A DNA stretch of 64,000 bases, taken from NCBI RefSeq assembly GCF_034259325.1, contig NZ_JAXIVS010000004.1, forward strand, positions 620,001 through 684,000, written 5' to 3'. The notes beneath the pieces are model-generated. The model had not been told where the DNA came from. It did not search any database and saw only the letters and a list, made by a program, of their open reading frames with translations. Below are positions 31,901 to 43,531 of the stretch, one piece after another (within the stretch, counting starts at the first letter, position 1; each line of letters begins with the position of its first letter). A program made the position numbers and the translations under genes. Source of the DNA: Hyalangium ruber. GTDB taxonomy: Bacteria; Myxococcota; Myxococcia; Myxococcales; Myxococcaceae.

Positions 31901-33301
31901 TCAGAAGCGGTCCGGCTCGGGCATGGGCGGCAGCACGTGGACCGCTCCATCTCCCGTCTGCGGCGGGCGCGCTGGCAGCACCACCGTGAAGCACGAGCCC
32001 TCGCCCGGCACGCTCGTGACGAGCACCTTGCCGCCGTGCCCCTCCACGAAGCGCTTCACGATGGCCAGCCCCAGCCCCACGCCTCCGAACTCCCGGGTGG
32101 AGCTGGAGTCCACCTGGTAGAAGCTCTGGAAGATGCGCTCGAAGTGGTCTTCCCGGATGCCGACGCCAGTGTCCTCGACGTCGATGCGGTAGCCCGTCGC
32201 CTCCAGCTCCGGCTGCGGCCCCACCTCGGAGACCCGGACGCGCACGCCGCCCTGCACGGTGAACTTCACCGCGTTGGCCAGCAGGTTCACCAGCACCTGC
32301 TGCAGCCGCCCCTTGTCCGCCAGCACCCGGGGCTGCCGGTGCTCGGGCAGCCGCACGTCCACGTTGAGCCCCTTGCGCTTGGCCTGGGGCGTCACGCTCG
32401 ACACCGCCGTCACGACGATCTCCGCCGCGTCCACCGGCGCGAAGGCCAGCCGCAGCTTGCCCGCGTCCAGCTGGCTGATGTCCAGGATGGAGGTGATGAG
32501 GTCCAACAGCGTGCGCCCCATCTCCGTGATGGACTGCACGCACTGGCGCTGCTCGGTGTTGAGCGGCCCGGTGAGCCCCTCGGACAGCAGCTCCGAGTAC
32601 GCGATGATGGAGGCCAGGGGCGTGCGCAGCTCGTGGCTCACGGTGCCCAGGAAGCTGGACTGCATCCGGTCCACCTCCCGCAGCCGCTTGTCGAGCACCG
32701 CCATGCGCGCGTCTCGCACCTCCAGCTCGCGGTGGATCTCCCCCGCCGACTCGAGCTGGATGCGGCTGGCGAGCCACGAGCGGTGCCCCGCCACCATCAG
32801 CCCCTCCACCACCCGGGAGAAGTACGCCACCGCCCGCGCCAGCGGCGAGGGGGCGGTACCCGCTCGCATCAGGTCCAGGCGTTCCCAGGGCAAGGCCGCC
32901 TGCTCCTCGGGCGTGAGAGGACCGAAGAGCACGCGCCCCAGCTCGGCCCCCTCCCAGCGCACCGGCAGCACCAGGTAGCGCGGGCCCGAGGGACAGGAGA
33001 GCACCGCCAGCGTGGCGCCCGCGCCCAGCGGCGCCCGGGCCGCGCACTGCTCGGCCCCGGAAGCCCCCGAGGTGGCGTGGGCACAGAAGGCCCCGGAGGG
33101 CCCCTCGGCGCCCGTCACACGCGTGCCCCGCAGGTCCAGCACCTGCGCGCCCGCGCCATGCAGGGTGACGAAGCCCTTCACCACCTCTTCGAAGGAGTGC
33201 TGATCAAACAGCTCCGCCAGCGGCGGCTCGCGCAGCAGGAGGGAGTCCGGGCGAGGAGGCGGCGGGGCCCCCCAGGGGGAATGTCCCTGATCTCCATTCA
33301 T
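31901..33301 (-). CDS. Sensor histidine kinase with PocR-like N-terminal domain
   Basis: The 466-aa kinase begins at the ATG at 33301, overlapping the GTPase stop (ATGA). Residues about 25-165 resemble a PocR-type ligand domain with spaced cysteines (AFCAHATS, AEQCAAR, VLSCPSG), possibly a redox or metal site. HisKA has FLGTVSHELRTPLASI with His223. The HATPase domain shows NLLANAVKFT, DVEDTGVGIRE and GVGLGLAIVK. No membrane segment is present. Coupling to an MglA-like GTPase suggests control of polarity or motility, but no response regulator is in the operon. Confidence 0.86.
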   Translation of the reverse strand: MNGDQGHSPWGAPPPPRPDSLLLREPPLAELFDQHSFEEVVKGFVTLHGAGAQVLDLRGTRVTGAEGPSGAFCAHATSGASGAEQCAARAPLGAGATLAVLSCPSGPRYLVLPVRWEGAELGRVLFGPLTPEEQAALPWERLDLMRAGTAPSPLARAVAYFSRVVEGLMVAGHRSWLASRIQLESAGEIHRELEVRDARMAVLDKRLREVDRMQSSFLGTVSHELRTPLASIIAYSELLSEGLTGPLNTEQRQCVQSITEMGRTLLDLITSILDISQLDAGKLRLAFAPVDAAEIVVTAVSSVTPQAKRKGLNVDVRLPEHRQPRVLADKGRLQQVLVNLLANAVKFTVQGGVRVRVSEVGPQPELEATGYRIDVEDTGVGIREDHFERIFQSFYQVDSSSTREFGGVGLGLAIVKRFVEGHGGKVLVTSVPGEGSCFTVVLPARPPQTGDGAVHVLPPMPEPDRF

Positions 33302-34011
33302 CCCTCACCACCTTGGGAGGCACCTTCGGCCTCGTAACGCCCCGCCAGCTTCGTGCCCGCGAGGTTCATGTGACGGAAGATCCGGCCCAGGAACTCCTCT
33401 TCCCCCAGGCCAATGTTGCGCGCCAGCCGGGTGTCCGCGTCAAGCCGTACCCAAGCCGACTGCATCAGCTCGTGGAACGTCTCGCACACCCCTTCACCCC
33501 GCAGGGCCACCGCCCCCACCACCGGCTCCCGGCCCCGCTGGCGCACCCGCTCCAGCTCCTCATCCGTCCGGGTGTCGGGCAAGTCCCGCTTGTTGAACTG
33601 GATGACCACGGGCACCCGGTCCGGATCCAACCCGTTCTCCCGCATGTCCTCGCGCAGGCTGTGCCAGTACCGGTTGTTCTCCTCGGTGGCGCTGCGGCGG
33701 CTGTCGGCGACGAAGGCCACCGCGTCGGCCGAGCGCAGGACGATGCGGCGCGTCGCGACATGCACCACCTGCCCGGGCACCGTGAGCAGCTTCACCTTCA
33801 CGTTGTACCCGTTGGAGGAGGAGAAGAAGACGGGCAGCACGTCGAAGAAAAGCGTGCGGTCGTCCCGGGTCTCCACGGACAGCAGCCGACCACGCACCTC
33901 GGGCCGCGCGCGGGCATAGAGCTGGCGCAGGTTGGTTGTCTTCCCACTGAGCCCAGGCCCGTAGTAGACGATCTTCAGTGTGAGCTCGCGCTGGGCGTGG
34001 TTGAGTTGCAA
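33298..34011 (-). CDS. MglA-family Ras-like GTPase
   Basis: The 237-aa protein matches the bacterial MglA family. P-loop YYGPGLSGKTTNLRQLY, DRTLFFDVLP, the G3 region TVPGQVVHVATRR (Pro-Gly-Gln in place of the usual DxxG Asp, as in MglA), VAFVADS and the G4 motif FNKRDLP are all present. It is longer than MglA (about 195 aa), with a C-terminal extension after residue 195. The start is TTG at 34011 with a poor ribosome site, so the exact N-terminus is uncertain. It is first in the GTPase-histidine kinase-thiL operon. It is a paralogue, not MglA itself, because no mglB precedes it. Confidence 0.83.
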   Translation of the reverse strand: MQLNHAQRELTLKIVYYGPGLSGKTTNLRQLYARARPEVRGRLLSVETRDDRTLFFDVLPVFFSSSNGYNVKVKLLTVPGQVVHVATRRIVLRSADAVAFVADSRRSATEENNRYWHSLREDMRENGLDPDRVPVVIQFNKRDLPDTRTDEELERVRQRGREPVVGAVALRGEGVCETFHELMQSAWVRLDADTRLARNIGLGEEEFLGRIFRHMNLAGTKLAGRYEAEGASQGGEG

Positions 34012-34277
34012 GGGCGGGGATCGGGCGAGCAGAAGAGCAGGGATGTCACCTCCCCCGCCACGGCTCCCCGTTTCTTATATGAGGGTGTCCGCCAATGAAA
34101 AGCCGTCTGGGGCGCTCTTAGGGGGAGCAGGCGTGGTGCTTGGAATGCCAGGCGCCGGTGTGCAGTTTGCTTGAGTCCGGCTCCTCATGACAGCTGAGGG
34201 GAAATGTGCGCGGAAACACTCCGTGCATGGCTACCGGTCAAACGGTTAGGATCGCAGCGCGACGGAGGAGCAAGGCG

Positions 34278-34814
34278 ATGACGATGAAGCAGGTGGACCC
34301 CGGCGTCGAGGCCGGTACGGTGCCGGTGCTGGAGCCCAACAGCCTGCCCAATGACTTGGTCTCGGCGTTGAAGATGGCGCAGCCGAGTGACGAGGACATG
34401 GGTACGGTGGCGGCCCTGCGCGCCAGCTCCGATCCCTGGAAGAGCCGGGGCGAGACGCAGGAGGAGAGCCTGCAGGCGCTCACCCAGCTGCGCCCCTACA
34501 TCCAGGTGGCGAAGCTGCAGAGCCAGGTGGTGGGCTACGTGACGGTGGAGCGCGACGGCCCGGTTCCGGGCGCGGCGTACATGCGCAACATCGTCGTGCG
34601 GCCGGACCTGCGCAAGCGCGGCCTGGGCATGGTGTTGCTCAACCACGCCGTCAACACGGCGCGCGACATGTACCGCAAGACGATCGCGCTCCGCGTGGAT
34701 CCGGCCAACGGGCCGGCGGTGAGCTTCTACCGCAAGGCGGGCTTCACCACCGTGGCGACGGTGGTGTCCAAGAAGTCCGGCAAGCTGCGCCTGTTGATGT
34801 CCCGCGAGCTGTAG
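34278..34814 (+). CDS. GNAT family N-acetyltransferase
   Basis: The 178-aa protein starts at the ATG at 34278, with GGAGGAG (34264-34270) at 7-nt spacing. The acetyl-CoA-binding motif A is clear: MRNIVVRPDLRKRGLGMVLL. Motif B is VSFYRKAGF. About 65 N-terminal residues precede the core. The substrate is unknown. It stands alone, divergent from the GTPase operon across 266 bp, and is followed by a strong hairpin terminator. Confidence 0.85.
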   Translation: MTMKQVDPGVEAGTVPVLEPNSLPNDLVSALKMAQPSDEDMGTVAALRASSDPWKSRGETQEESLQALTQLRPYIQVAKLQSQVVGYVTVERDGPVPGAAYMRNIVVRPDLRKRGLGMVLLNHAVNTARDMYRKTIALRVDPANGPAVSFYRKAGFTTVATVVSKKSGKLRLLMSREL

Positions 34815-34905: not shown

Positions 34906-35823
34906 ATGAAAACCTCTGCCGAGCACCTGCTGGCCGGCCCCTGGGGGCTGCCCGGGAACCTCGATGCGGAGCTGGCCCGCGCGCTGGAGCAGGAGGACTA
35001 CGGCACCGCGCTGGCCCTGCTGCGAGACGCGCTGCCCGCCTCACCCGAGCCCCGGTTGCTGGTGCTGCTGGCCTTCGTGCGATTCCAGGATGCGCAGGAG
35101 GTGATGGTCACGGAGCTGCTGCCCGCGTGCCAGGAGGCGCTCGGGTTGCTGGAGCGCGCCGCCGAGGCGGGCCTGCCGTGGGACGTGGTGGCCCCGCTGC
35201 GCGAGGAGGTGGAGCGCGTGCTGGCGGAGGAGACGGCTCATGAGCTGAAAGCCGAGCGCATGACGCCCGAGCTGGCGCGGAGCGCGCCCCTGGAGCAGGT
35301 GCTCGAGGCCGCCAGCCGCCTGCGCGCCGCGAACCCCGCTCGCGCCGCCGAGCTCTTCCTCGTGGCCGCGAGCCGGGACACTCCCGAGCGCGCCCCCATC
35401 CACCGCACCGACGCGGGCATTGCCCTGCACCAGGCCGGCCGCTTCGAGGAGGCACGCCCGCTGCTGGAGGCCGCCCTGGGGCTCGACTGGGCCTCCTCGG
35501 CGCTCTGGCCGGAGCGCCTCCACGTGGACTGGGCCGCCACGCTTCTGTTGGAGCAGGCCCACGCCGCGGGCAACACCGCGGCCTTCGAGTCCCTCTGGGA
35601 CCGAGCGCTCATCCTGAGCCGCCAGCTCCAGCACCCCTTCCCCTCCAACTGGCTCAACCAGGAGCGCCTGCTCGCGCTGCTGATTGATCGCGGGGATGGC
35701 GCCCGCGCCGCCCATGTGGCCACCCGCATCGAAGCCAGCCGGGACTACCTGCCCCGGGCCCTGGCCGCCCAGGTCACACAGGCACGCACCCTGGCCCGAC
35801 AACAGTCACAGCCAGTGTCCTGA
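34906..35823 (+). CDS. Helical-repeat (TPR-like) protein of unknown function
   Basis: The 305-aa protein is almost entirely alpha-helical and Ala/Leu/Glu-rich. Helix pairs resemble tetratricopeptide or Sel1-like repeats, for example ALEQEDYGTALALLRDALP, AGIALHQAGRFEEARPLLEA and LALLIDRGDGARAAHVATR. It has no signal peptide or membrane segment. It is probably a cytoplasmic scaffold. It precedes the PilT-like pair by 78 bp, but a terminator-like element lies between, so cotranscription is doubtful. Confidence 0.68.
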   Translation: MKTSAEHLLAGPWGLPGNLDAELARALEQEDYGTALALLRDALPASPEPRLLVLLAFVRFQDAQEVMVTELLPACQEALGLLERAAEAGLPWDVVAPLREEVERVLAEETAHELKAERMTPELARSAPLEQVLEAASRLRAANPARAAELFLVAASRDTPERAPIHRTDAGIALHQAGRFEEARPLLEAALGLDWASSALWPERLHVDWAATLLLEQAHAAGNTAAFESLWDRALILSRQLQHPFPSNWLNQERLLALLIDRGDGARAAHVATRIEASRDYLPRALAAQVTQARTLARQQSQPVS

Positions 35824-35901: not shown

Positions 35902-37881
35902 ATGAAGCCCATCGCGGAACTGCTGCGCTACCTGTCGCACCCGGACATCACCGAGATCGCCCTGACGACGGGGCGATGCACGATGATCAAGAGCCTCAAC
36001 GGCTACGAGCCGGTGGATGGCGCCGTGCTGACCGATGAGGAGCTGAACCGAACGCTGCTCACCATGGTGGGGCCGGCGCGCACGGCCGCCGTGTCGGAGA
36101 AGCCCATCAAGTGGGCGGTGCGTGCCGAGGGTGTGGCCACGCTGGCCGTCATCGCCGTGCGCCGGGGAGAGGGCCTCAGCCTGCGCCTGCTGCGCTCGGG
36201 GGAGACGTCCACGCCCACGGTGTCCCCGCGCTCGGCGGAGGGAGAGTCGCGACTGGCGGAGACGACGCCCGCGCCCGGCTCCACGGTGGGGGCCGACACC
36301 TCGCTGCCCGCCGAGGCCGCCGAGGCTCGCCCCTTGGTGCCCGCTTCGATTGCCCCCGTGATTCCGCCCCTGCGCCCGTCCGAGACCAACCTGCGGGTGA
36401 TCAAGGCGACGGCGATGTTCGGGCAGTCGCAGGTACACACTTCGGCTCCCGTCCCTCCTCCGCCTCCCGCGGCGCGCATCGAGACCGCGCCAGCCCCGGC
36501 CGCCCGGCCACCGCCTCCGCCTCCGCCGCTCGCCGCTCGCATCGAGGCCGTGCCCGCACCTGCCCCGGCGGTCCGTCCACCGCCTCCGCCACCCGCCGCC
36601 CGCATCGAGGCCGTACCCGCTCCGGAGGCTCGCCCCGCTCCGCCGCCTCCGCCGCCCGCTGCCCGCACCGAGGCCGCGCCCGCCCCCGAGGCACGCCCCG
36701 TTCCGCCACGCGCGAGACCGGACTTCTGGAGGGATCTGCCCGCGCTGCTGGAAGAGGCCCGACGCCTGGGCGCGAGCGACCTGCACGTGGTGGCGGAGCG
36801 GCCCGCGCTGTTCCGCGTGGCGGGCGAGCTGAAGTCCGACGGTGAGGTGCTCTCCGCCGAGAAGGTGGAGTCGTGGCTGCTGGCGCAGGTACCCGCGAGG
36901 CTGCGGCCGGTGCTGGAGCGCGAGGGCAGCTGCGACTTCGCGCTGGAGACCGAGGCCCACGGCCGCTTCCGGGTAAACGTGAGCCGTCAGCGCACCGGGC
37001 TCAAGGGCTCGTTCCGAGTCCTCGCCCGGGAGCTTCCCGCGCTGGAGTCGCTCGGGCTGCCGCCGGAGCTTGCCCAGGCGACGCGCCACGCCCAGGGCCT
37101 CGTGCTCCTCACGAGCCCCGCCGGCCACGGCAAGACGAGCACGGTGGCGGCGCTGGTGGACCTGCTCAACCGCGAGACGAAGCGCCACGTGCTCACGCTG
37201 GAAGAGCCAGTGGAGTACGTCCACCCGCGCAAGAAGGCGCTGGTGAGCCAGCGCGAGGTGGGCACGCACACCCGCTCCCTGGCCACCGCGCTTCGCGGCG
37301 CGCTGCGCGAGGATCCGGATGTCCTCGTCGTGGGCGAGCTGCGCGACCTGGAGACGGCGCGCGTGGCGCTGGCGGCGGTCGAGCGAGGGCACCTGCTCCT
37401 CAGCACGATGAACGCGCCGAACGCGGCGGTGGCCCTCACCCGGCTCATCGAGCTGTTCCCGCCGGCGGAGCAGGCGCAGGTACGGCTCACGCTGGCCTCC
37501 CACCTGCGGCTCATCGTCAGCCAGCGGCTGCTGCCGCGCGCGGATGGGGCGGGGGTGGTGGCGGCCACCGAGGTGCTGCCGGGTTCGGCGGCGCTGGGTC
37601 AGCTCCTGCGCGACACCTCTCAGTCCCTTCCCGCCTCGCTCCAGCAGCGTGCCAAGGGCTTGGGCCTGAGCCGCCTGGACGATTCGCTGGCGAACCTGGT
37701 GCGCGCGGGGAAGGCGACGCTGGAGGTCGCCCAGAGCTTCTCCGAGTCCCCCGAGGCGTTGGAGGCCGCGGTGACGGGCAAGGGGCCTGGACCTGGAGCG
37801 CCACCGCTGAGTCCCGAGCCCGGGACGAACGGGCAGGGGGTGAGCAAGGTCGGCTCGTTGCTGGGCCGCCGGAGCGCGTGA
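35902..37881 (+). CDS. PilT-like type IV pilus retraction ATPase with extra N-terminal domain and proline-rich linker
   Basis: The 659-aa protein is nearly twice PilT length. Residues 1-95 look like a stand-alone copy of the PilT N-terminal PAS-like domain (HPDITEIALTTGRCTMIKSL). Residues about 110-275 are a Pro/Ala/Glu-rich linker with repeated PPPPPAARIEAVPAP units. The PilT module (about 275-620) has LGASDLHVV, P-loop SPAGHGKTST with Lys411, EEPVEYVH, and Walker B with intact VVGELRDLETAR. It lies 10 bp upstream of a second PilT-like gene. It may drive or regulate pilus retraction; the P-loop opens with Ser rather than Gly. Confidence 0.83.
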   Translation: MKPIAELLRYLSHPDITEIALTTGRCTMIKSLNGYEPVDGAVLTDEELNRTLLTMVGPARTAAVSEKPIKWAVRAEGVATLAVIAVRRGEGLSLRLLRSGETSTPTVSPRSAEGESRLAETTPAPGSTVGADTSLPAEAAEARPLVPASIAPVIPPLRPSETNLRVIKATAMFGQSQVHTSAPVPPPPPAARIETAPAPAARPPPPPPPLAARIEAVPAPAPAVRPPPPPPAARIEAVPAPEARPAPPPPPPAARTEAAPAPEARPVPPRARPDFWRDLPALLEEARRLGASDLHVVAERPALFRVAGELKSDGEVLSAEKVESWLLAQVPARLRPVLEREGSCDFALETEAHGRFRVNVSRQRTGLKGSFRVLARELPALESLGLPPELAQATRHAQGLVLLTSPAGHGKTSTVAALVDLLNRETKRHVLTLEEPVEYVHPRKKALVSQREVGTHTRSLATALRGALREDPDVLVVGELRDLETARVALAAVERGHLLLSTMNAPNAAVALTRLIELFPPAEQAQVRLTLASHLRLIVSQRLLPRADGAGVVAATEVLPGSAALGQLLRDTSQSLPASLQQRAKGLGLSRLDDSLANLVRAGKATLEVAQSFSESPEALEAAVTGKGPGPGAPPLSPEPGTNGQGVSKVGSLLGRRSA

Positions 37882-37891
37882 GAGGAGCGCC

Positions 37892-38983
37892 ATGACGACC
37901 CCGCGCCTGTCTCCGCTCTTCGACGCGCTCCTGGCCGAGAAGGGCAGCGATCTGCACCTGAGCATCGGCCATCCTCCGCTGGGCCGCATCCGTGGGGAGC
38001 TGACGCCCCTGCGCGAGGCGCCGCTCACGGCCTCCGAGGTGGAGGCACTGCTCTTCGAGCTCCTCAGCCCGGAGCAGAAGCACCAGCTCACCGAGGCGAT
38101 GGACCTGGACTTCTCCTACAGCTACGGGACGAAGGCCCGCTTCCGCGCCAACTGCTTCCACAAGGTGACGGGGCTGGCGGCGGTGTTCCGTCCCCTGCCG
38201 GGCAAGGTGCCTTCGCTTGCGGAGCTGAGCGTGCCAGAGGCGGTGCGCAAGCTGGCCGAGCGCCGGGGCGGACTGGTCCTCGTCACCGGCCCGAAGGGCA
38301 GTGGCAGGTCCACCACGCTGGCGGCGATGGTCCACCACATCAACCAGACGCGCCACGTCCACATCCTCACGCTCGAGGAGCCGGTGGAGTTCATCCACGA
38401 GCCGGCGAAGGCGCAGGTGACCCAGCGCGAGGTGGGGCCGCACGCCGCCAGCTTCGCCGCGGCCCTGCGCTCGGCGGAGCGCGAGGATGCGAACGTCGTA
38501 CACGTCGGAGAGCTGTGTACTCCGGAGACGATTCGGCAGGCGCTGGAGCTCGCGGACGCGGGCGTGCTGGTGCTGGCCTCAGCGCACACACTTGGCGCTT
38601 CGGCCACGATCGAGCGCCTCCTTAGTGCGTTCCCCGAGGAGGAGCAGCCGGGGATTCGTGGAAGGTTGGCGGACAACCTCGCGGGCATCCTCTCGCAGCA
38701 GCTCGTCCGCACGGCGGATGGCAAGGGGCGCGTGGTGGCGATGGAGGTGCTCCTTGGCGGCGGCGCCATCGCTGCGTTGATCCGCGAGGGCAACCTGTCC
38801 CCGCTCGCCGGCAAGTCGCAGCCGCTCGACCAGCACCTGGAGAAGCTGGTGGCGGCGGGAACGGTGGCGCCCGAGGCCGCGCTGGAGAAGGCACAGGACC
38901 GCGAGGCCTTCACCAAGACGCTCCAGCGCCTCAAGCCGGGCTTCGTTCCACCCGCGACAAGCACCCCTGTACCGCAGTCGTAG
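37892..38983 (+). CDS. PilT-like protein with degenerate ATPase motifs
   Basis: The 363-aa protein has the size and domain order of PilT: an N-terminal PAS-like domain with KGSDLHLSIGHPP, then a RecA-like core with LTLEEPVEFIHE and VTQREVG. Two key sites are altered. The P-loop reads GPKGSGRSTT, with Arg139 where the nucleotide-binding Lys should be. The Walker B/Arg-finger region reads VVHVGELCTPETI, so the Arg-Asp pair of the usual GE(L/M)RDLETI is Cys209-Thr210. Glu207 is kept. It is probably weak or inactive as an ATPase and may work as a regulatory partner of the protein encoded 10 bp upstream. Confidence 0.82.
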   Translation: MTTPRLSPLFDALLAEKGSDLHLSIGHPPLGRIRGELTPLREAPLTASEVEALLFELLSPEQKHQLTEAMDLDFSYSYGTKARFRANCFHKVTGLAAVFRPLPGKVPSLAELSVPEAVRKLAERRGGLVLVTGPKGSGRSTTLAAMVHHINQTRHVHILTLEEPVEFIHEPAKAQVTQREVGPHAASFAAALRSAEREDANVVHVGELCTPETIRQALELADAGVLVLASAHTLGASATIERLLSAFPEEEQPGIRGRLADNLAGILSQQLVRTADGKGRVVAMEVLLGGGAIAALIREGNLSPLAGKSQPLDQHLEKLVAAGTVAPEAALEKAQDREAFTKTLQRLKPGFVPPATSTPVPQS

Positions 38984-39066: not shown

Positions 39067-40134
39067 ATGCGCCTCACCTGCCTCCGTGGACGTGCGCCCC
39101 TGGCACTCACGTGCCTGTTGCTCCTCGTTGCCTCCTGCCGTGGCTCCCTGAGCTGCGCCAGCGGAGGCGCGCAGGCGCCCACGGGGCCGCGCGTCTATGT
39201 CAGCAACGAGGAGTCCAACGACATCTCCGTCATTGACCCGTCGACGGATCAGGTCGTCGCCACCGTCTTCGTGGGCAAGCGCCCCCGGGGGCTCCGGCTC
39301 AGCCCCGACGGCAAGACGCTCTACGTGGCCGTGAGCGGCTCGCCCCGCGCCCCTCCAGGCGTGGACGAGAGCACCCTGCCCCCTCCGGACCGGAGCGCCG
39401 ATGGCATCGCGCTCGTGGACGTGGCCACGCTCGAGCTCGTCAAGACGCTGGAGAGCGGCAATGACCCGGAGACGTTCGACATCACCCCCGACGGCAAGCA
39501 CCTGTTCGTCTCCAATGAGGATGCGGCCCTCGCCTCCGTGGTGGAGCTCGCCTCGGGCCGGGTGACGCGCACCGTACCCGTCGGCCGCGAGCCCGAGGGC
39601 GTCACCACGCGGCCCGATGGCCGGGCCGTCTACGTCACCAGCGAGCAGGACAGCCAGGTCTTCGTCCTCGACACCTCGAGCCATGAGGTGGTGGCGCGCA
39701 TCCCCACCGGTGACAGGCCTCGCTCCGTCGCCTTCACCCCGGACAGCACGCGCGCCTACATCGCCGCGGAGTTCGGCCGCACCATCACCGTGGCCGATGC
39801 CCGAGAGCACCGCGTCCTCACCACCATCCCCATCGAGCCCGCGAGCGCCAGGCCCATGGGCACCGCGCTCTCTCCGGATGGCCGGACGCTGTACGTCACC
39901 CACGGTCGCGGAAAGTCCCTCTCCTTCATCGACATCGCGAGCAACCAGGTCGTCCGCACCGTGGAGGACGTAGGCACCCGCCCCTGGGGCATCGGCGTCA
40001 GCCCCGACGGCCGCAAGCTCTACACCGCCAACGGTCCCTCCAACGATGTCGCCGTCATCGACGCCCAGTCGGGCGCGGTGCTCAAGCGCATCCGCGTGGG
40101 CACCCTGCCCTGGGGCATCGCCGTCGCACGCTAG
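39067..40134 (+). CDS. YVTN beta-propeller lipoprotein associated with PQQ-dependent catabolism
   Basis: The 355-aa protein has a lipoprotein signal (LLLLVASC, Cys24) and about seven YVTN-type blades: RVYVSNEESNDISVIDPSTD, LRLSPDGKTLYVAVS, FDITPDGKHLFVSNED and GIGVSPDGRKLYTANGPSND. This matches the propeller proteins repeatedly found beside PQQ-dependent dehydrogenases. The dehydrogenase gene follows after 123 bp on the same strand. Its role is unproven; scaffolding or cofactor/electron-partner binding at the envelope is plausible. Confidence 0.83.
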   Translation: MRLTCLRGRAPLALTCLLLLVASCRGSLSCASGGAQAPTGPRVYVSNEESNDISVIDPSTDQVVATVFVGKRPRGLRLSPDGKTLYVAVSGSPRAPPGVDESTLPPPDRSADGIALVDVATLELVKTLESGNDPETFDITPDGKHLFVSNEDAALASVVELASGRVTRTVPVGREPEGVTTRPDGRAVYVTSEQDSQVFVLDTSSHEVVARIPTGDRPRSVAFTPDSTRAYIAAEFGRTITVADAREHRVLTTIPIEPASARPMGTALSPDGRTLYVTHGRGKSLSFIDIASNQVVRTVEDVGTRPWGIGVSPDGRKLYTANGPSNDVAVIDAQSGAVLKRIRVGTLPWGIAVAR

Positions 40135-40158
40135 GCGTTGGGTCTCCCGCCCGACACC

Positions 40159-40198
40159 CTACCCTTTGGGTAGTCAACACTGTGGCTCGTACCTAGGT
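40159..40198 (+). promoter_or_regulatory. Two palindromes upstream of the PQQ dehydrogenase operon
   Basis: CTACCC-TTT-GGGTAG (40159-40173) is a perfect 6-bp inverted repeat, and ACCTAGGT (40191-40198) is a perfect 8-bp palindrome, both in the 123-bp gap before the dehydrogenase. They are placed as operator sites for the oxidation operon would be. The first could instead be a small terminator for the propeller gene. Confidence 0.35.
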
Positions 40199-40257
40199 GC
40201 AGGAAGCGAAACCGCTCACCCGAACTTCTTACAAAGAGTCCATACGCTGGAGCGCGT

Positions 40258-42150
40258 ATGCCGCTCCCCGCGCAGGACACCTCCAGCTCACCGCCCGCCC
40301 TGAACTCCGTTCTCGGGACGCGTGCGCTCCTCGTCGCGCTCGTCCTCGCGCTCCTGCCCGCCTGCAAGGACAAGAGTCCGAAGCCGCCCGCCTCTACCGC
40401 CTCGGGCGCCAAGAGCCCTCAGCTCGACAAGGCCCAGTTCGACGTCTCCCAGCTCCAGGAGGATGACACCCAGTGGGTCATGGCGGCGAAGAACCACGCC
40501 AACACCCGCTTCAGCCGCCTCACGGACATCAACGCCACCAACGTGAAGGACTTGAAGGTGGCGTGGACGTACTCCACCGGCTTCGTGCGCGGACACGAGG
40601 CCGCGCCGCTCGTGGTGGGCGACACGATGTACGTCGTCACCCCGTTTCCCAACCATCTGGTCGCGCTGGACCTCTCCAAGGAGGGCGCGCCGATGAAGTG
40701 GGTGTACGAGCCCCAGCCCTCCCCGGCCGCCCAGGGCGTGGCCTGCTGTGACCACGTCAACCGCGGCGCGGCCTACGCCGACGGGCGCCTCTTCTACAAC
40801 ACGCTCGACAACCACACCGTGGCCGTGGACGCGCAGACGGGCAAGGAGCTGTGGAAGACGAAGCTCGGCGACATCAACAAGGGCGAGACGATGACCATGG
40901 CCCCGCTGGTCGTGCGCGACAAGGTCATCGTCGGCAACAGCGGCGGCGAGTTCGGCGTGCGCGGGTGGGCGGCGGCGCTCTCCACGAAGACGGGCGCCGT
41001 GCTGTGGCGCGCCTACAGCACCGGGCCGGACTCGGACGTGCTCATCGGCCCCAACTTCAAGCCCTTCTACGAGCAGGACCGTGGCAAGGACCTGGGCGTC
41101 AAGAGCTGGCCTCCCGAGCAGTGGAAGATCGGCGGCGGCACCGTGTGGGGGTGGCTCTCGTACGACCCCGAGCTGGACCTCCTCTATTACGGCACCGGCA
41201 ACCCCGGCCCGTGGAACCCCGAGCAGCGCCCCGGCGACAACAAGTGGACGTGCGGCATCTTCGCGCGCAAGCCGGACACCGGCGAGGCCGTGTGGTTCTA
41301 CCAGTGGAGCCCGCACGATCTGTTCGACCATGACGGCATCAACGAGGCCATCATCACGAACCTCACCGTCAACGGCCAGCCGCGCAAGGTGCTCATCCAC
41401 CCCGGGCGCACCGGCTACGTGTACGTGCTGGACCGCGCCACCGGCGAGGTGCTCTCGGCCGTTCCCTTCGCGCACATCACCACCAGCAAGGGCGTGGACC
41501 TGAAGACGGGCAAGCTCGTCCCCGTGCTGGAGAAGAGCCCGGGCCTGGGCAAGACGGTGCGCGACATCTGCCCCGCGGCGCCGGGCGCCAAGGACTGGTC
41601 CCCCGCCGCCTTCTCGCCGCAGACGGGGCTGCTCTACATCCCCGGCAACAACCTCTGCCAGGACGAGCAGGGCCTGGAGGCCAACTACATCGCCGGCACA
41701 CCGTACCTCGGCGCCAACGTGCGGATGTACCCGGGCCCTGGCGGCAATGGCGGCGAGTTCATCGCCTGGGATGTCCTCAACGGGAAGAAGGTGTGGAGCA
41801 TCCCCGAGCTGTTCCCCGTCTTCAGCGGCGCGCTGGTCACCGCCGGGGACGTGGTCTTCTACGGAACGATGGATGGCTGGTTCAAGGCGCTCCACGCGCG
41901 CACCGGCCAAGAGCTGTGGAAGTTCAAGGTGGGCTCCGGAATCATCGGCCAGCCCATCACCTTCCGAGGACCGGACGGCACGCAGTACGTCTCCGTGCTC
42001 TCCGGCGTGGGGGGCTGGGCCGGCGCCATCGTCGCGGGCCAGTTGGATCCACGCGACCAGAGCGCCGCGCTGGGCTTCGCCAACGCCATGAAGGAGCTGC
42101 CCAAGTACACCACCCGGGGCGGCATGCTCTACACCTTCCGCCTGCCATGA
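40258..42150 (+). CDS. PQQ-dependent methanol/ethanol-family dehydrogenase with lanthanide-type D-x-D motif
   Basis: The 630-aa quinoprotein is an eight-bladed propeller that would oxidise an alcohol in the periplasm and pass electrons to cytochrome c. The adjacent-Cys disulfide of the family is C163-C164 (GVACCDH). Metal/PQQ ligands by motif are Glu231 (GGEFG), Asn315 (GTGNPGPWN) and catalytic Asp357 in FDHDGIN. Asp359, two residues on, is the extra Asp that marks lanthanide enzymes (XoxF, ExaF); calcium enzymes of the MxaF type have Ala there. The N-terminus has an unusual lipoprotein-like signal (LALLPAC, Cys36). The start at 40258 has GGAG about 5 nt upstream. It heads a series of overlapping genes. 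Confidence 0.88.
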   Translation: MPLPAQDTSSSPPALNSVLGTRALLVALVLALLPACKDKSPKPPASTASGAKSPQLDKAQFDVSQLQEDDTQWVMAAKNHANTRFSRLTDINATNVKDLKVAWTYSTGFVRGHEAAPLVVGDTMYVVTPFPNHLVALDLSKEGAPMKWVYEPQPSPAAQGVACCDHVNRGAAYADGRLFYNTLDNHTVAVDAQTGKELWKTKLGDINKGETMTMAPLVVRDKVIVGNSGGEFGVRGWAAALSTKTGAVLWRAYSTGPDSDVLIGPNFKPFYEQDRGKDLGVKSWPPEQWKIGGGTVWGWLSYDPELDLLYYGTGNPGPWNPEQRPGDNKWTCGIFARKPDTGEAVWFYQWSPHDLFDHDGINEAIITNLTVNGQPRKVLIHPGRTGYVYVLDRATGEVLSAVPFAHITTSKGVDLKTGKLVPVLEKSPGLGKTVRDICPAAPGAKDWSPAAFSPQTGLLYIPGNNLCQDEQGLEANYIAGTPYLGANVRMYPGPGGNGGEFIAWDVLNGKKVWSIPELFPVFSGALVTAGDVVFYGTMDGWFKALHARTGQELWKFKVGSGIIGQPITFRGPDGTQYVSVLSGVGGWAGAIVAGQLDPRDQSAALGFANAMKELPKYTTRGGMLYTFRLP

Positions 42151-42965
42151 GGATGCCCGTGATCGCCCAGACGCTCGCGGTCCTGCTCCTGCTGGGAGCC
42201 GCGCCCTCCACCGAGCCGCCCGCCGCGCCGCCCGAGCGCGTGCTGCGCGTGTGCGCGGACCCCAACAACCTGCCCTTCTCCAACCAGCGCCAGGAGGGCC
42301 TGGAGAACCGGCTCGCCGAGCTGCTCGCGCGCGAGCTGAAGGCCACCGTGCAATACACGTGGTGGGCCCAGCGCCGTGGCTTCATCCGCAACACCCTCAA
42401 GGCGGGCCTGTGCGACGTGGTGCTCGGAGTGCCCGCGGACTTCGAGCTGGCGCTCACCACGCGGCCCTACTACCGCTCCACCTACGTCTTCGTGTACCGC
42501 AAGGACCGAGGGCTGAAGCTGGGCTCGCTGGAGGATGAGGCGCTGCGCACGCTGAAGGTCGGCGTCCACCTGATCGGCGACGACATGGCCAACACGCCGC
42601 CCGCGCACGCGCTCGCCCGGCGCGGCATCGTGAACAACGTCGTCGGCTACACCCTCTATGGCGACTACACGCAGGAGAACCCGCCCTCGGCGCTCATCGA
42701 AGCGGTGCGCCGGGGCGAGGTGGACGTGGCCATCGCCTGGGGGCCCCTGGCTGGCTACTTCGCCCTGCGGCCCGGGCCGGAACTGGAGGTCGTGCCCGTC
42801 CAGCCTCGCAAGGACACCGCCACCGGGCTGCCCTTCGTGTTCGACATCTCCGTGGGCGTGCGTCGCGGGGACAAGGCGCTGAAGGCGGAGCTGGAAGCCG
42901 CGCTCTCCCGCCGCCGCCCCGAGGTGGAGGCGCTGCTCACCGAGTACGGCGTGCCTCGTCCCTGA
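42147..42965 (+). CDS. Quinoprotein dehydrogenase-associated periplasmic binding-protein-like protein (XoxJ/MoxJ-like)
   Basis: The 272-aa exported protein has a signal peptide and an amino-acid-binding-protein (SBP_bac_3) fold: LRVCADPNNLPFSNQRQEGL, then GLCDVVLGVPADFELALTT. The start ATG overlaps the dehydrogenase stop (ATGA). Homologues beside PQQ dehydrogenases (MxaJ/XoxJ) are thought to help activate or assemble the dehydrogenase rather than import a substrate. No ABC permease is linked here, which supports that reading. Confidence 0.86.
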   Translation: MRMPVIAQTLAVLLLLGAAPSTEPPAAPPERVLRVCADPNNLPFSNQRQEGLENRLAELLARELKATVQYTWWAQRRGFIRNTLKAGLCDVVLGVPADFELALTTRPYYRSTYVFVYRKDRGLKLGSLEDEALRTLKVGVHLIGDDMANTPPAHALARRGIVNNVVGYTLYGDYTQENPPSALIEAVRRGEVDVAIAWGPLAGYFALRPGPELEVVPVQPRKDTATGLPFVFDISVGVRRGDKALKAELEAALSRRRPEVEALLTEYGVPRP

Positions 42966-42976
42966 AGGAAGCCCTC

Positions 42977-43531
42977 ATGCACGCGCTCCCCGCCCGACAC
43001 TTCCTCCCGTGCCTCTGCCTGCTGGGCCTGGTGCTTGGCTCGTGCGAGCGGGAGCACCGCCGCTTCCAAGAGCTGGCGCCCTCCTCGCGCCCGGCGGACG
43101 CCGTCCAGATGAGCGAGCTGCAACCCGGCGAGCCCACGCCACGCCCTCAAACCCAGGCCCAGTACGAGGAGAACGCCTACGCCCTCAACGAGGGCAAGCG
43201 GCTCTACCAGTGGTTCAACTGCTCGGGCTGCCATGCCCAGGGTGGAGGCGGCATGGGCCCTCCTCTCATGGACGCCAAGTGGCGCTATGGCAGCGAGCCG
43301 GAGAACATCTACGCCACCATCGTGGAGGGACGCCCCAACGGCATGCCCTCCTACCGGGGGAAGATTCCCGACCAGCAGGTCTGGCAGATCGTCGCCTATG
43401 TGCGCTCGATGAGCGGGCTGCTGCGCACGGATGTGGCGCCCAGCCGCGCCGACTCGCTCAGCGTCAAGCCCCCGGAGGCGATGAAGGCCGAGGAGAAGCC
43501 CACTCCCGCGCCGGTGGAGCAGGAGCGATGA
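42977..43531 (+). CDS. Class I cytochrome c lipoprotein, probable electron acceptor of the dehydrogenase
   Basis: The 184-aa protein has a lipoprotein signal (GLVLGSC, Cys23) and one heme c site (FNCSGCHAQGGGG), with Met ligand in GMPSYRGKI. Its position directly after the dehydrogenase and its partner matches cytochrome cL/XoxG genes, which take electrons from the quinoprotein. A Pro/Glu-rich tail follows the heme domain. Its stop overlaps the start of oxidase subunit II (ATGA), tying acceptor and oxidase together. Confidence 0.85.
   Translation: MHALPARHFLPCLCLLGLVLGSCEREHRRFQELAPSSRPADAVQMSELQPGEPTPRPQTQAQYEENAYALNEGKRLYQWFNCSGCHAQGGGGMGPPLMDAKWRYGSEPENIYATIVEGRPNGMPSYRGKIPDQQVWQIVAYVRSMSGLLRTDVAPSRADSLSVKPPEAMKAEEKPTPAPVEQER

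Follow-up and report, generated by a model that had tools for sequence, protein, structure and literature searches.

In four Hyalangium-like genomes, erosion of a tandem pair of PilT-family genes falls disproportionately on the ATPase motifs of the downstream member, P1, but not on those of its upstream partner, P2. We lean, if narrowly, towards the view that P1 in this clade is a young pseudo-ATPase retained as a structural partner of P2. The pair lies in a stretch of Hyalangium ruber DNA of 64,000 nucleotides, which we call the window. The eroded clade consists of H. ruber and the genomes designated G040, G041 and G042, and its sister group is Stigmatella-like.

P1 and P2 in Hyalangium ruber

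P1 (37892–38983, plus strand) is a PilT-family protein of 363 aa, predicted to be defective in ATP hydrolysis, whose gene starts 10 bases past the stop of P2. The original prediction that it has a PilT fold is borne out. The protein scores 340.9 bits on TIGR01420 (PilT/PilU family; cut-off 319.1), its AlphaFold2 model, built from 27 sequences, has a mean pLDDT of 87.5, and the top Foldseek match of that model is 6ojx, the Geobacter PilT4 (TMq 0.85), with the PilT fold extending over the whole length. The Walker A motif, GPKGSGRSTT (aa 133–142; 38288–38317, plus strand), carries Arg139 in place of the Lys, exactly as first read (codon AGG, 38306–38308), and Lys135 at P-loop position 3 (38294–38296), where relatives have Thr. 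At the end of Walker B, GELCT (aa 206–210; 38507–38521, plus strand), the catalytic Glu207 is retained but the adjacent Arg is replaced by Cys209, which is followed by Thr210 (TGT ACT, 38516–38521). Asp-box Glu162 and His-box His232 (38585–38587, plus strand) are both present, the second pore-loop acidic residue, Glu212, is also kept, and eight residues near aa 312 that relatives conserve are missing. Judged by the residues of a competent PilT, P1 has probably lost its ATPase activity. When it is set beside PilT retraction ATPases such as Geobacter metallireducens PilT4 and P. aeruginosa PilT, P1 resembles them in fold, family score, Asp-box Glu, catalytic Glu and His-box His, and differs in the absence of the Walker A Lys and the Walker-B-adjacent Arg, in having Thr for the pore-loop Asp, in its location outside the pil cluster and in an identity of only ∼40%.

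P2 (35902–37881, plus strand; 659 aa) consists of an N-terminal domain, a Pro-rich linker and a PilT core, and belongs to the same family with 327.4 bits on TIGR01420, above the cut-off of 319.1. It was correctly described at the outset as keeping both the Walker A Lys (Lys411 in SPAGHGKTST, 37114–37143, plus strand) and the Arg-Asp pair. Its His-box His, however, is replaced by Asn504 (37411–37413, plus strand), and this position is Asn in all 58 other Myxococcaceae partners, in 4/4 clade members and in both aligned outgroup partners. The same 58 partners all have Lys, Glu and Arg-Asp (the number is 58, not 60, since two genomes have no partner on the fetched piece). Among deeper Myxococcota P2 proteins the His-box His is found in 14/20, with N, M or Q in the other 6/20. 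P. aeruginosa PilT variants E204A and H229A abolish twitching, according to an excerpt of PMC6858323, and since P2 is without the His that is essential in PilT (H229A), it may be a poor motor for rescuing P1.

Two further properties of P2 were noticed. A His at P-loop position 5 (His409 in GHGKT, 37126–37128) occurs in 57/58 other Myxococcaceae partners, in the clade and at loci L155 and L160, and was seen solely where the His-box His is gone (it is absent from all 14 of the deeper P2 proteins whose His box is intact); compensation or common ancestry are possible explanations. The N-terminal domain (35902–36201, ∼100 aa), which precedes the Pro-rich linker, is conserved in relatives and has no Pfam match, and by eye it looks like a second PilT N-terminal domain.

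Loss of catalytic residues among relatives

At a threshold of E up to 1e–100 within the family Myxococcaceae, a P1 orthologue is present in 64/96 genomes, H. ruber included, and in all 64 genomes examined of the 8 genera that have P1. These orthologues are full-length, which rules out chance or a frame artefact. All 64 were read together with three outgroup proteins (two same-order matches and one from a deltaproteobacterial contig). Outside the clade, Lys139, Glu207, Arg209, Thr210 and His232 are present in 60/60 orthologues, and position 135 is Thr in the same 60. The replacement of the Walker A Lys, whose conservation in orthologues had been proposed as a check, turned out to be private to H. 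ruber: Lys is found in 63/63 other family orthologues, and Arg139 depends on a single base (AGG versus AAG) in a single genome. The clade as a whole is marked by another change, the loss of Arg209 in 4/4 copies (as C, N, D and S). His232 is Tyr in three of the four (G040, G041 and G042), and G041 has in addition Glu207 changed to Gly, the only such change in the clade, and Asp163 changed to Arg. The reading frames are intact in all four copies and the gene pair is retained in all four genomes. The G041 protein (L030/L014), which is without Glu207, Arg209, His232 and Asp163 together, is perhaps the most decayed copy.

The absence of the Arg-Asp pair after Walker B had been presented as a single loss. 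Both residues are indeed missing, but not through one event: Arg was lost in the clade only, from a position that is Arg in 60/60 other orthologues, and Cys209 is private to H. ruber, while Thr210 is family-wide. The three outgroup P1 proteins have Asp at position 210, and since Thr is found there in 60/60 orthologues outside the clade, the loss of that Asp is old and ancestral for the family. By counting from the catalytic Glu, position 210 corresponds to D398 of PilB in the numbering of PMC5424180, an excerpt of which places D398 in pore loop 1 and describes ‘D398 or E400’ as conserved. The change of Asp210 to Thr is probably not a catalytic loss.

To the columns of the two proteins we applied a pooled test, in which four ATPase motifs were delimited by the analyst and a column was counted as changed if at least one clade member had changed. 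For P1 columns invariant in the 60 orthologues and the 3 outgroups, 12/26 motif columns are changed versus 14/76 others (Fisher exact test, P-value = 0.0085); for P2 the corresponding numbers are 7/23 and 13/61 (P-value = 0.40). If each genome is tested separately and invariance is required only across the 60 orthologues, the enrichment in P1 motifs is weak (P-values of 0.18, 0.18, 0.22 and 0.047).

Age and surroundings of the pair

The P2–P1 tandem was found in 20/20 further Myxococcota loci, which were picked from the best P2 matches and one of which (L149) is on the same contig as outgroup L017, and all 20 P1 proteins there have retained Lys, Glu, Arg and His. A 68-protein tree resolves P1 (31) and P2 (31) as two monophyletic groups whose branching is mirrored. 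The tandem arrangement in deeper loci and the two mirrored clades indicate that the pair is old, and by sequence it is an ancient Myxococcota-wide tandem distinct from the pilus-retraction pilT. The catalytically complete member, as predicted from these residues, is usually P1 and not P2, the reverse of the roles first assigned to them. P2 is the odd member in the lineage leading to Myxococcaceae, where its His-box His was replaced. Full-text searches of the open-access literature, including by candidate MXAN numbers of the M. xanthus pair, returned no published study of the P2–P1 pair, and no natural PilT pseudo-ATPase common to a clade was found in open-access full text.

Several genes upstream of the pair are its conserved neighbours: a GNAT acetyltransferase (34206–34814, plus strand), a Ras/Arf-type GTPase with a weak Arf match (33298–34011, minus strand), for which we assume the name MglA-like, and a histidine kinase with a PocR sensory domain (31901–33301, minus strand). 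The GTPase and kinase genes lie upstream of the pair here and downstream in relatives; this changed side points to a local rearrangement. Directly upstream of P2 is a gene for a TPR-like protein (34906–35823, plus strand), present in the clade and in the Stigmatella-like sister group and absent from the other loci examined. Its insertion was considered as a trigger of the erosion and rejected, as the sister group has the TPR gene too, with an intact site. The pair is followed by beta-propeller, PQQ-dehydrogenase-like, solute-binding and cytochrome c genes (39067–43531), and beta-propeller, PQQ-dehydrogenase and cytochrome c homologues are likewise downstream of P1 in some other loci (L058, L067 and L074).

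A separate pilT-type gene of H. ruber (G000:C6:144869) lies directly downstream of a PilB-like ORF at 144026 and shares 91–97% identity with its counterparts in the 19 other genomes that were searched. We take it to be the canonical pilT of S-motility. P1 is not beside pilB and falls in another clade of the tree, and the importance for S-motility that the original prediction gave to it is unsupported because canonical pilT lies elsewhere. The additional PilT paralogues of M. xanthus presumably include P2–P1 orthologues, although, unlike the proteins of the eroded clade, relatives from genus g19 (taken as Myxococcus) have a complete P1 site. Four such paralogues besides the validated PilT are mentioned for this species in an extract of PMC6762196.

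Selection on P1 and competing explanations

Values of omega were estimated with our own GY94, F3x4 codon-model code, checked for sensible values only, on a 12-taxon tree, and the branches for these tests were picked once the losses had been seen. P1 omega is 0.101 in the clade versus 0.049 elsewhere (2dlnL 17.9), and for the clade a P1 value of 1 can be rejected (2dlnL 385). P2 omega is 0.130 in the clade versus 0.055 elsewhere (2dlnL 29.7), and canonical pilT shows no clade rise (0.017 versus 0.027, 2dlnL 2.9). With the sister group as the reference, the relative distance of the clade to outgroups comes to 2.61 (P1) and 1.87 (P2); three neighbours give 0.82, 1.02 and 0.95, and canonical pilT gives 0.76. 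Lineage-wide fast evolution is ruled out by these controls, which are not accelerated; the acceleration in the clade is specific to the P2–P1 pair and is about twofold. On the H. ruber P1 branch omega is 0.105 and neutrality is rejected (2dlnL 42.5). Simple random decay, to which a Lys kept by orthologues was to have pointed, does not describe this branch: the orthologues do keep the Lys, yet the H. ruber protein does not evolve neutrally. Omega is as low as background on the P1 tips of G040 and G042 (0.055 and 0.038), from which Arg and His are gone, and is 0.37 on that of G041, where neutrality is not rejected (2dlnL 3.5), so the G041 copy may be decaying.

With the G041 copy as a possible exception, P1 shows what is expected of a pseudoenzyme: catalytic residues have gone from a protein that is otherwise under constraint. 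It resembles known pseudoenzymes in its conserved fold, eroded catalytic residues and purifying selection, and differs from them in that the change is very recent, with four states in four genomes, and the loss of activity is predicted. The main and serious rival is ongoing decay, in which the pair is dispensable in the clade and P1 is becoming a pseudogene, its ATPase site being hit first because it was the most constrained before. The acceleration of both genes relative to neighbours and canonical pilT agrees with this, as do the different set of losses in each clade genome, the G041 branch, on which neutrality is not rejected, and the 8-residue deletion in H. ruber P1. That P2 too is relaxed in the clade, which is what a waning importance of both genes would predict, counts against a pseudo-ATPase. 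We nevertheless consider decay a possible but doubtful explanation, given that frames are intact and the pair is kept in all four genomes, that omega stays near 0.1 in the clade and at 0.04–0.055 on the G040 and G042 tips following the losses, and that P1 losses cluster in ATPase motifs.

It is also conceivable that P1 is still active in a re-wired form, with the phosphate contacted by Arg139 or by Lys135, a new residue four positions before it. Lys135 and Arg139 arose in one loop of one genome, position 135 being Thr in all 60 orthologues outside the clade; Glu207, Glu162 and His232 are intact in H. ruber, and selection on P1 persists. We find this improbable: it concerns a single genome, Arg209 is gone as well, and the equivalent loss cripples PilT of V. 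cholerae. An excerpt of PMC6762196 describes strain MO10, in which a natural R206S change, affecting the same Arg, leaves PilT defective and retraction PilU-dependent. Moreover, the three clade relatives keep Lys139 but lose His or Glu, which indicates a clade trend toward loss of catalysis. Slimmer still are the chances of the model proposed originally, in which active P2 and inactive P1 form a mixed hexamer or P1 acts as a brake on S-motility retraction: an active/inactive pair is possible within the clade, the two genes are adjacent and P2 has its Lys, Glu and Arg-Asp in all 58 other Myxococcaceae partners, but Arg139 is not conserved, the ‘active’ P2 is without the His-box His, P1 is complete in relatives, canonical pilT is another, highly conserved gene by a PilB-like gene, and PilT and PilU of V. 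cholerae are reported as independent homohexamers in an extract of PMC6821130.

A young pseudo-ATPase could have arisen stepwise. The Walker-B-adjacent Arg would have gone first in the clade, followed by Lys139 in H. ruber and by the His-box His (plus Glu in one genome) in the others, with purifying selection preserving the reading frame and the remaining protein. Most likely, P1 would still build the PilT ring and dock on a platform or partner without driving it, and P2 might act through P1 as through a non-hydrolysing adapter or scaffold. The model for this is V. cholerae, where ATPase-dead PilT still supports PilU-driven retraction (excerpted in PMC6821130); the role of P1 as an adapter, in a filament or a secretion system, is proposed by analogy. 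As in the gammaproteobacterial PilT/PilU tandem, two PilT-family genes are adjacent, a damaged member lies by another ATPase, and the Arg lost is the one lost in MO10. Unlike that tandem, P2–P1 is a paralogue lineage of its own in Myxococcota, P2 is extended at its N terminus and has no His-box His, and the damage to P1 is clade-wide and not that of a laboratory mutant or single strain. The missing His of P2 weakens the adapter proposal. More tentatively, and with rather more doubt than belief, an ancient pair of two motors may now be a motor and a passive ring, reached in each species by its own route, with Lys135 maybe a relocated catalytic lysine.

The pair brings into view a PilT tandem that spans Myxococcota and has no published study in the open-access literature searched. 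P1 of the clade may be on its way to a partner role without motor function. If this is true, the four genomes would hold natural intermediates on the way from a functional pilus-type motor to such a partner, and the Stigmatella-like sister group, whose site is complete, could serve as a control. They would also let the roles of PilT-type rings beyond ATP hydrolysis be tested, a point raised by PilT-dependent retraction by PilU.
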